Positions 24,987-37,664 of a stretch of DNA of 37,664 bases are shown here, piece by piece (position 1 is the first letter of the stretch; the number at the start of each line of letters is the position of its first letter). Under the pieces are notes generated by a model. It saw only the letters and a list, made by a program, of their open reading frames with translations, ran no database searches and was not told where the DNA came from. The DNA is from Clostridiales bacterium (GTDB taxonomy: Bacteria > Bacillota > Clostridia > TANB77 > SIG350), in contig SVGE01000009.1 of assembly GCA_015056545.1 (NCBI GenBank), positions 1 through 37,664 of the forward strand, written 5' to 3'. The position numbers and the translations under genes are program-made.

Positions 24987-25011
24987 ATATACATAAGAGA
25001 AAATTTAATAA

Positions 25012-25155
25012 TTCGGTAGGTGAGGCTACTACAGGGATACGGGTTGCTACCGCGAAATAGTGGAGACACTATTAGTTGGTTAGCAGGATATGTCGAATTA
25101 AGGCATATTCTAATGCAACTTCATTGCCCTGCAAAGCTAAAACTTGAACGATGAA
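25012..25155 (+). ncRNA. M-box (ykoK) magnesium riboswitch
   Basis: The stretch GGTAGGTGAGGCTACTACAG (25016-25035), then GGGTTGCTACCGCGAAATAG, GTTAGCAGGAT, TAATGCAACTTC and TTGCCCTGC has the conserved blocks of the M-box. This RNA binds Mg2+ and turns off Mg2+ transporter genes when Mg2+ is high. It is followed by an intrinsic terminator and then mgtE, the expected layout. Confidence 0.92.
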
Positions 25156-25181
25156 TATAATTATAATATAAATGAAAGTAT

Positions 25182-28017: not shown

Positions 28018-28102
28018 ATTTTAATATATGCATATTATATATTTTTAATATGAATTTATCAATAGAAGTGTAAAAAGAAGTATAAAAAACAATAAAAAAC
28101 TA

Positions 28103-28131
28103 TTGAAAAGTTAAAATACCTATGATATATT
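28103..28131 (+). promoter_or_regulatory. Promoter of prepilin-like cassette 2
   Basis: TTGAAA (28103-28108), 17 nt, TATATT (28126-28131) with TGA directly before, an extended -10. Cassette 3 has TTGAAA, 17 nt, TACTAT at the matching place. Confidence 0.65.
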
Positions 28132-28156
28132 ACAAAATGAAAGCAGGTGAAAGAAA

Positions 28157-28228
28157 ATGTCAAATAAAACCAGTACAAAGTGCCATAAAGTGCTAAATAC
28201 TAGGGGGGGGGGGATGTTTATAGTATAA
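28157..28228 (+). CDS. Leader ORF of cassette 2, interrupted at a poly-G tract
   Basis: ATG 28157 with RBS AGGTGA (28145-28150) opens MSNKTSTKCHKVLNTR, then Gly codons from the G tract. With the 11 G present it ends GGGMFIV at TAA 28226-28228. With 9 or 12 G it would continue DVYSIKTSLIDMQ, then KNIENLRIYYEKT to TAG 28291-28293, a peptide of 44-45 residues. The conserved start, RBS and stop in cassette 3 support translation. The peptide sequence itself resembles nothing I know, so it is probably regulatory. Confidence 0.6.
   Translation: MSNKTSTKCHKVLNTRGGGMFIV
28203..28213 (+). repeat. Poly-G tract, 11 residues
   Basis: Eleven G in a genome region of very low GC, flanked by AATACTA and ATGTTTATAG. 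Cassette 3 has ten G at the same place. Homopolymers of this length slip readily during replication. Read number may also be misjudged in assembly. Confidence 0.9.
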
Positions 28229-28260
28229 AAACATCTTTAATTGACATGCAAAAAAATATA

Positions 28261-28314
28261 GAGAACTTAAGAATATATTACGAGAAAACGTAGTATAGTC
28301 TTAGGTTCTTTTTT
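28261..28314 (+). terminator. Hairpin A of cassette 2, terminator-like
   Basis: GAACTTAAGA (28263-28272) pairs with TCTTAGGTTC (28299-28308); inner stem TATTACG/CGTAGTA (28276-28282, 28289-28295). Six T follow (28309-28314), so it has the form of an intrinsic terminator. The stop codon of the long leader frame (28291) lies just 3' of the loop. Confidence 0.6.
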
Positions 28315-28485
28315 GCGCCAAATTAAAAAACATATATTTTGGCAATAATAAGATAAAGGACCAAGGAAGGAGGTAATAAAAAGGAAAATAAAAAACTACA
28401 ACAAAACAGTTAAAGTAAAACTGAAAGTGTTATACAATGAAATTGTATAATAACAAAAGATTAGATTTTAAGGAGGAAAAAGAAT

Positions 28486-29709
28486 ATGAAAAATTTAAAG
28501 AATAGTAGAACATCAGGTATAAGCTTAGTTGCACTAATCGTAACAATAATTGTATTAATAATATTAACTGCTGCAGTTATTGTAACTTTTATGGAAGGTG
28601 GAATAATAGATAGAGCAAAAGAAAGTGTATTTAAAAGTGATATACGAACATATCAAGAAATATTGACAGTAAAAAGAGCTGAGGAACAAATTAAACTAGC
28701 AACAGGAAAAGGAGAAGAAGAATTAAAATTAATAGACAAAACAATAAGTGGAGAAGGAATAAAAGATATAATACCAGAATTTAAAGTAGAAGAATATGGA
28801 GCAATAGTACAAATAGTAGATGGAGTATTAGTATTAGGAGAAGGATATGAAAGTGCAACAGACCTTCAAAAAGAATGGTTAGAAGATTTAGGAATTAGTG
28901 CGGGAGAAGAAAATAATGAAGGAATATCATTAGTTAGTGTTGCAAAAGTAGGAAATTATGTAGATTATAATATAGTGGGTGAAACAGATACAATAGTAGA
29001 AGAAGATAGAGGATGGATATATAAATATACTAATGGTATAGTGAGTTATGAAATAGGATATCAAGATATAATGTGGAGAGTATTAAAAAATGATGGAAAT
29101 ACAGTAACATTAGTAAGTGCAGAGCCAGTAGAACTTATAAATCTATCTGGAGAAAATGGATTTATAAAAGGGCCAGATAGATTAGATGAAATATGTTTTA
29201 AAGTATATGGTGGGAGAAACTTAAAAATAGAAGATGTAAATGAAGTACTAGGAGTGGAACCGGTTCCAACTTATATTAATTCTGAAGTGATAGAAGTAAC
29301 AAAAAAATTCGGAACAACTTTAGGAGATGTAATAGCAGAGGAAGAATATGATGTAAGTAGTTGGATTAGTAAACCAGAAAATTATGAGGAACTAGAGTTA
29401 GTATATTTTTATAATCAATCAAGTTGTACAGAAGTAAGTTATGAAGTGCAAGATATGATATTTGGCAAGGGGAACTATTGGTTATCTTCAACTGCTGCTG
29501 GGGTATTTTTTGCCATGGGGCGTGCAGATTTTGATGTATTCTATGTAATGGACACAGCTGTTAGTTATGATGTATTATATTATTCGGATGGAAATGAGTC
29601 TGAAAATTATCATGGTTTGCGCCCAGTAGTTACTTTAAGCTCTAATATCAAAGTAGCAGAAGAAACAGGAGATGGAACTAGTGCAGAAAAACCATGGATA
29701 TTAAAATAA
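28486..29709 (+). CDS. Prepilin-like surface protein, cassette 2
   Basis: 407 residues. Basic leader (MKNLKNSRTSG), then ISLVALIVTIIVLIILTAAV and EGGIIDRAKESVFKSDIRTY, almost the same as copy 1 to about residue 95. Mature position 5 is Ala rather than Glu. The distal part differs from copy 1: IMWRVLKNDGNTVTLVSAEP, a central acidic region, GKGNYWLSSTAAG and YHGLRPVVTLSSNI, ending GDGTSAEKPWIL. The YWLxS...RPVV pattern is common in Clostridial surface proteins with a DUF6273-like or C-type-lectin-like fold. Probably processed by a prepilin peptidase and exposed on the surface. A-ending codons dominate (ATA, GCA, GAA). RBS AAGGAGGA is 9 nt from ATG. Confidence 0.85.
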   Translation: MKNLKNSRTSGISLVALIVTIIVLIILTAAVIVTFMEGGIIDRAKESVFKSDIRTYQEILTVKRAEEQIKLATGKGEEELKLIDKTISGEGIKDIIPEFKVEEYGAIVQIVDGVLVLGEGYESATDLQKEWLEDLGISAGEENNEGISLVSVAKVGNYVDYNIVGETDTIVEEDRGWIYKYTNGIVSYEIGYQDIMWRVLKNDGNTVTLVSAEPVELINLSGENGFIKGPDRLDEICFKVYGGRNLKIEDVNEVLGVEPVPTYINSEVIEVTKKFGTTLGDVIAEEEYDVSSWISKPENYEELELVYFYNQSSCTEVSYEVQDMIFGKGNYWLSSTAAGVFFAMGRADFDVFYVMDTAVSYDVLYYSDGNESENYHGLRPVVTLSSNIKVAEETGDGTSAEKPWILK

Positions 29710-37191: not shown

Positions 37192-37323
37192 ATGTATCAT
37201 CCTTTCATTAAAAAAATTTAATAAAATTAAAATAATTCAATTTTACCCGAATTTTATTATACCATAAAAAACAAATTATGTAAATTAGTTTAAGAAAAAA
37301 AGTTGAAAAAAGAAGAAAAACTA

Positions 37324-37352
37324 TTGAAATGATAAACTACTTATGATACTAT
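37324..37352 (+). promoter_or_regulatory. Promoter of prepilin-like cassette 3
   Basis: TTGAAA (37324-37329), 17 nt, TACTAT (37347-37352), with TGA before the -10. Aligned to the cassette 2 promoter. Confidence 0.65.
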
Positions 37353-37378
37353 ACAAACAAGAAAGTAGGTGTAAGAAA

Positions 37379-37444
37379 ATGTCAAATAAAACCAAAGTAA
37401 TATGCCAGAAAGTGCTAAATACTAGGGGGGGGGGATGTTTATAG
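37379..37444 (+). CDS. Leader ORF of cassette 3, interrupted at a poly-G tract
   Basis: ATG 37379 (upstream AGGTGT in the RBS position) opens MSNKTKVICQKVLNTR. With the ten G present it ends GGGCL at TAG 37442-37444. With 9 or 12 G it would continue DVYSIKTSLIGMP, then KNIENLRIYYDKT to TAA 37512-37514. Start, length and final residues match cassette 2. Confidence 0.6.
   Translation: MSNKTKVICQKVLNTRGGGCL
37425..37434 (+). repeat. Poly-G tract, 10 residues
   Basis: Ten G, at the same place as the 11-G tract of cassette 2. The length difference between otherwise near-identical leaders shows the tract varies. Confidence 0.9.
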
Positions 37445-37481
37445 TATAAAAACATCTTTAATTGGCATGCCAAAAAATATA

Positions 37482-37533
37482 GAGAACTTAAGAATATATT
37501 ACGACAAAACGTAATGTAGTCTTAGGTTCTTTT
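37482..37533 (+). terminator. Hairpin A of cassette 3, terminator-like
   Basis: GAACTTAAGA (37484-37493) pairs with TCTTAGGTTC (37520-37529), then TTTT; inner stem ATTACG with CGTAAT, fully complementary here whereas the other copies have G-U at one pair. Confidence 0.55.
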
Positions 37534-37664
37534 GTTTTGCCCAAATTAAAAAAATATATTTTGGCAATAATATAATAAAGAACTGAAGGAAGGAGGAGAA
37601 AATAAAACAAAAAAACTACAACAAAACAGCTTAGGTAAAACTAAAAGTGTTATACAATAAAATT

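Follow-up and report, generated by a model that had tools for sequence, protein, structure and literature searches.

What is a long run of G doing inside a short leader open reading frame (ORF) in front of a surface-protein gene? The question is raised by a locus in a 37,664-nucleotide stretch of DNA from a Clostridiales bacterium, which we call the window. An earlier note, made from the letters alone, had suggested that slippage of the tract decides whether a ribosome covers one arm of a terminator-like hairpin and lets transcription enter the gene. We found that the leader, the G tract, its frames and the hairpin (hairpin A) are real, and that the observation is far larger than first reported.

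Organization of the locus

The window holds an internal cassette of the long leader type and further cassettes at both of its ends. Their features are as follows.

28103-28131, forward strand: sigma-70-type promoter, TTGAAA-N17-TATATT with TG before the -10 hexamer (10 of 12 matches; kept in nearly all copies of the cassette)
28145-28149, forward strand: Shine-Dalgarno (SD) sequence AGGTG of the leader ORF
28157-28228, forward strand: leader ORF in the assembled 11-G frame, from ATG 28157, peptide MSNKTSTKCHKVLNTRGGGMFIV; the closed (putatively OFF) frame
28203-28213, forward strand: poly-G tract, 11 G (7-13 G in the paralogous copies)
28214-28228, forward strand: early-stop segment with TAG 28221-28223 and TAA 28226-28228; altered variants of the segment keep the stops
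28214-28293, forward strand: alternative (putatively ON) frame, entered with 9 or 12 G, open across arm 1 of hairpin A as far as its stop, TAG 28291-28293
28260-28282, forward strand: hairpin A, arm 1 (hairpin A -24.3 kcal/mol, z -8.4)
28289-28311, forward strand: hairpin A, arm 2, leading into a T run (TTCTTTTTT); terminator-like
28317-28343, forward strand: hairpin B (GCCAAA..TTTGGC), -6.4 kcal/mol, z -3.2; lies between arm 2 and segment 3 where the leader is of the long type
28356-28368, forward strand: segment 3 (AAGGACCAAGGAA), putative antiterminator strand, potentially pairing with the outer part of arm 2
28486-29709, forward strand: prepilin-like surface protein gene, N-terminal MKNLKNSRTSGISLVALIVTIIVLIILTAAVIVTF, preceded by a 5' UTR
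37323-37664, forward strand: second cassette, with promoter, leader ATG 37379, 10-G tract 37425-37434 and hairpin A 37481-37532; cut by the contig end
5-1080, forward strand: first cassette, truncated by the contig start; retains the part from hairpin A on, and a prepilin-like gene (229-1080)

Most of what had been read from the letters stood. A leader ORF with a ribosome-binding site does run into 11 G, the copy at 37379 does have 10, and the cassette at the window start keeps hairpin A together with the last part of the open frame. With 11 G as assembled, the leader that begins at 28157 ends shortly after the tract, at the TAA of the early-stop segment; this stop begins 13 nt past the tract, slightly beyond the 12 nt that had been given. 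With 10 G the stop would be the TAG of the same segment. Only 9 or 12 G would connect the leader to a frame open for 26 codons, which crosses the 5' arm of hairpin A and ends just inside its 3' arm. The terminator-like character of the hairpin held as well, while the six T described after it occur only in this copy and a few others.

The prepilin-like proteins of the window had no match in Pfam or NCBIfam. A small inverted repeat lies right after the G tract (28214-28234), and its bases covary in some copies; on its own it has -0.8 kcal/mol and is not more stable than shuffled sequences, and therefore we assign no role to it. The sole match in an Rfam scan was an unrelated and ordinary M-box magnesium riboswitch (RF00380, 123.6 bits) at 25005-25162 on the forward strand.

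A family of leaders in one genome

The leader has 36 matches in the genome (1.45 Mb in 17 contigs); two of these are short, and the family has about 34 copies. In 31 distinct copies the tract could be read; in the one assembly consensus it has 7, 8, 9, 10, 11 or 13 G, most commonly 10. A copy of the leader immediately precedes every one of the 29 genes closely related to the prepilin-like gene (E below 1e-33), and the five leaders with no gene are all at contig ends. Many contig ends fall inside cassette copies (window positions 1 and 37664 and ends of contigs C1, C7, C11, C12, C13, and C16), so the repeats broke the assembly and further copies may exist.

The 31 copies share the SD motif GGTG, the start codon and 15-16 codons before the tract, and this part of the ORF is interrupted in none of them. 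Its changes, 5 synonymous and 19 non-synonymous as compared to 27 and 91 possible, include no stop codon, and the encoded amino acids appear to be under no clear constraint, as expected of a cis-acting leader.

A post-tract frame broken in most copies, which the earlier note had named as evidence that would speak against its reading, was not what we found. Of the three post-tract frames, one and only one passes arm 1 of hairpin A and ends inside the hairpin, and this holds in 30 of 30 complete copies. The arm begins at +46 to +49 from the tract and the open frame stops at +74 to +101, while the other two frames meet stops at +9 to +26. As assembled, four of these copies are in the open state and 26 in the closed state, as compared to one third open if the state were neutral; the shortage of open frames may reflect selection or the assembly consensus.

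The two early stops and the one open frame persist even where, as in several copies, the stretch from tract to hairpin has indels or a replaced segment. For example, TGTTCTATAGAATAAG takes the place of ATGTTTATAGTATAAA in variants of the stop-bearing segment, with the stop pattern kept. In some copies, 1-nt indels before the arm bring the open frame to where the TAA of the arm is avoided, and in L011 and L026 a 1-nt deletion shifts the open frame to a different G number. A coding continuation after the tract, which would give a fused protein, was considered and rejected: indels shift the peptide frame in several copies and openness is kept, so the post-tract peptide itself is not conserved. 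In no copy does a frame join the leader to the prepilin gene.

Hairpin A and its T run are at the right place in all copies. The hairpin is AU-rich, and its T run reads TTCTTTTnTTT in most copies; the corresponding U run is modest and often interrupted in most copies of this genome.

A putative antiterminator strand

In 27 of 28 copies, segment 3 offers a partner for arm 2, at a constant spacing downstream of hairpin A. The pairing covaries in the short leader type (TTAGGTTC with GAACCTA, TTAAGTTC with GAACTTA), where arm 1 stays constant and uses G-U pairs while arm 2 and segment 3 change together. We take segment 3 as a likely antiterminator strand, with less confidence than the other steps because most copies of the long leader type have a mismatch in this pairing.

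At a fixed downstream place (28356-28374 in the window, with equivalents in other copies) there is also an arm-1-like segment. It overlaps a strong SD-like AAGGAGG, behind which the long leader type has no obvious start codon.

Related leaders in the order and beyond

The exact leader pattern was absent from 85k named genomes, so the leader sequence may be private to the species or genus. Two relatives from the same family lack a poly-G leader. When 143 genomes of the order were scanned for runs of at least 9 G, a few genomes showed several. We read nine poly-G copies in a genome from another family (G003), and two, both before type IV prepilins, in G007. These G runs lie inside SD-led leader ORFs of unrelated sequence, upstream of strong intrinsic terminators, and the genes behind them are mostly of the secreted or type IV prepilin kind. 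In every copy of the two genomes, one frame continues beyond arm 1 to a stop in the loop or the 3' arm, and both remaining frames end within 3-21 nt. The same architecture thus recurs with unrelated sequences.

It also recurs with a different repeat unit. In G002, a genome of the same family, prepilin-like genes (L108, L111, L114, L117, L120, L123, L126, and L129) are found behind leader ORFs with (AC)8-10, followed by a terminator, and most of these loci have the geometry of the poly-G type. Tracts of the (AC) type occur in 52 of the 143 genomes of the order, and a single genome can have as many as dozens of matches. In named genomes we found at least 118 (AC) stretches; among the matches listed, the titles are those of uncultured Clostridia, Clostridium or Clostridiaceae MAGs, some of them from roe deer omasum and goat rectum.

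Other loci look different. In G001, which is in the same genus as G002, prepilin-like loci (L107, L110, L113, L116, and others) have no long simple repeat nearby; either the switch was lost there or control is of a different kind. A class-wide poly-G scan returned mostly ordinary in-gene tracts, and in other Clostridia we noted in-gene poly-G contingency loci with one frame open for more than 700 nt (L198, L200, L202, L209, L211, L213-L215, L221, L224, and L227). Runs of 8-11 G in G121 (L177-L179), near the starts of and between several repeated, possibly phage-tail-like genes, are a different kind of phase-variable locus. L201 in G147 has a similar look and was rejected, as it leads into no gene.

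Statistical support for the arrangement

In total, 232 distinct tracts were collected, of which 120 have a leader start and a callable terminator and form 41 sequence clusters. The arrangement was defined strictly: exactly one frame extends beyond the middle of arm 1, both others stop at least 5 nt before it, and the tract is not an in-gene one. Summed as cluster fractions, the strict arrangement reached 22.2 of 41, as compared to 7.0 expected when the spacer was shuffled with dinucleotides kept (z 6.6). A leader, a terminator and the strict arrangement came together at 93 of 232 tracts and at 3 of 3000 random positions. About half of the 41 clusters miss the strict definition, in part through miscalled terminators or tracts inside a gene.

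Among the 93 arrangements, the stop of the open frame is in the loop or arm 2 in 74, and the assembled repeat number gives an open frame in 15 and a closed one in 78. A downstream ORF was readable in 86 cases. By our reading of the sequences, 65 of these genes are prepilin-like, and the rest are mostly secreted or membrane-anchored in appearance, with one resembling a sugar aminotransferase.

Proposed mechanism and alternative explanations

A phase-variable, translation-controlled transcription attenuator is very probably the best explanation of the locus. Slippage in the leader, as the earlier note had proposed, has strong comparative support in the 30 of 30 paralogous copies, the unrelated poly-G leaders and the (AC)n leaders. 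From this pattern we infer slippage in the cell, ribosome blocking, terminator activity and the outcome for gene expression. Each prepilin-like gene would have a promoter of its own, from which transcription passes a leader containing a translated mini-ORF, and this ORF runs into the slippery poly-G run. In two of the three frames, the ribosome would stop within 9-26 nt after the run and remain about 30 nt away from hairpin A; arm 1 could then pair with arm 2, hairpin A would form, and transcription would end (OFF). In the third frame (9 or 12 G in the window copy) the terminator could not form, because the ribosome would read through the 5' arm of hairpin A and stop inside the hairpin, and transcription would continue into the surface-protein gene (ON). 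The downstream antiterminator segment would probably take up arm 2 in the ON state. Slippage during replication would alter the number of G, and each copy would be switched independently.

Since Rho is encoded in the genome, the early stop codons could also act by polarity: an early stop would leave the leader RNA untranslated for Rho to terminate, and the long frame would shield the RNA. Many copies have a weak U run after hairpin A, which agrees with this route. We nevertheless consider it unlikely, as a strong hairpin and a T run rightly placed in all copies fit an intrinsic terminator, the G003, G007, and AC families have canonical terminators, the ON frame stops within the hairpin and not further on, and the RNA left untranslated is short and rich in A. 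Both polymerase and ribosome can slip on runs of 10 G, and slippage at the RNA level (by the polymerase or by ribosomal frameshifting) would produce a constant mixture of frames and not a heritable switch. That the paralogous tracts differ in DNA length (7-13 G), that the (AC)n of relatives is not a classical slippery sequence, and that the inverted repeat after the tract, at -0.8 kcal/mol, is too weak for a convincing frameshift stimulator make this reading quite improbable.

The tract might instead serve recombination, in the manner of the pilE G4 of Neisseria gonorrhoeae, and shuffle cassettes among the approximately 34 repeated loci; the many near-identical 5' regions before divergent genes and an assembly broken by repeats are in line with this. 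However, a single run of G does not amount to a pilE-like G4 motif, the run sits inside an SD-led ORF with frame logic, and (AC)n replaces it in relatives, so that such a role seems highly improbable. It is barely credible that the tract is the target of a trans-acting sRNA whose binding is tuned by tract length, with the frame being irrelevant. RepG and tlpB in H. pylori (PMC8295292) are indeed a case of an mRNA leader with a variable G repeat, but the frame-and-terminator geometry here is kept in all copies, the uninterrupted SD-led ORF in 31 copies is given no reason, and the (AC)n of relatives with the same geometry speaks against sRNA pairing as a general mechanism.

Novelty and significance

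The earlier note knew of no described example, and this claim was wrong, because Danne et al. 2014 (PMC3894217) demonstrated the mechanism in S. gallolyticus pil1 and pil3 with GCAGA repeats. The kind of mechanism is already known from these two Streptococcus pilus operons. Our literature search for poly-G or dinucleotide versions found Danne et al. alone. As far as the searched literature shows, the mononucleotide and dinucleotide versions are new, together with the presence of about 30 loci in one small genome, the order-wide recurrence, the unrelated leaders, the interchangeable repeat units and the possible antiterminator.

A broader reading, which we find moderately probable, is that frame-controlled attenuation serves as a general switch for pilin-like and other surface proteins across a whole order of gut Clostridia. 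Dozens of loci per genome would switch independently, the slippery unit (a G run or AC) would be freely swapped under a retained geometry of frame, stop and terminator, and some loci would have a trp-like antiterminator strand. A mechanism from two Streptococcus operons would appear as a genome-wide regulatory layer in uncultured gut Clostridia, and with about 30 independent ON/OFF switches one clone could show very many combinations of pilin-like surface proteins. Expression states could be predicted from metagenome reads, because the ON frame is readable from the sequence, and this would open the surface heterogeneity of uncultured gut bacteria to tests that need no cultivation. The exchange of one repeat unit for another, with the geometry unchanged, also offers a natural test of the attenuator's requirements.

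Comparison with known systems

In the pil1 leader ORF of S. gallolyticus, GCAGA repeats change the reading frame: the short frame stops upstream of the terminator hairpin (OFF), and the longer frame, ending in or after it, leads to high pilus expression. Mutants of the start codon and the terminator behave as this mechanism predicts, and pil3 has the same design (PMC3894217). Several features of the pil1 type are also found here, namely an SD-led leader ORF with a simple repeat, a predicted terminator hairpin between leader and gene, and early as opposed to late frame stops; the short frame is again the predicted OFF state, the frame that reaches into the terminator the predicted ON state, and the controlled genes are again of the pilus or pilin kind. 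The two systems are not entirely alike. S. gallolyticus has a pentanucleotide in two sortase-type pilus operons, with proof from mutants, whereas the system described here is known from sequence, has poly-G or (AC)n in front of about 30 dispersed prepilin-like genes in one genome, recurs throughout an order of Clostridia with unrelated leader sequences, and has a possible antiterminator segment.

As in attenuation of the trp type, translation of a leader peptide would choose between a terminator and, probably, an antiterminator pairing. In contrast to trp, the input would be a heritable repeat length, which sets the stop that is met, in place of amino-acid supply or a stalled ribosome. Regulatory codons at which a ribosome would stall, such as a series for a single scarce amino acid, were not found before the hairpin; the Gly codons of the leader arise solely from the G run, and His-Thr replaces them in the AC leaders. 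The G repeat of H. pylori tlpB is likewise variable and likewise in an mRNA leader, but it acts by pairing with the RepG sRNA (PMC8295292) and not through a reading frame. Ordinary in-gene poly-G contingency loci share homopolymer slippage, surface genes and ON/OFF frames with the leaders described here. In those loci the tract is part of the regulated gene, whereas here it lies in a separate leader and would act through the terminator.
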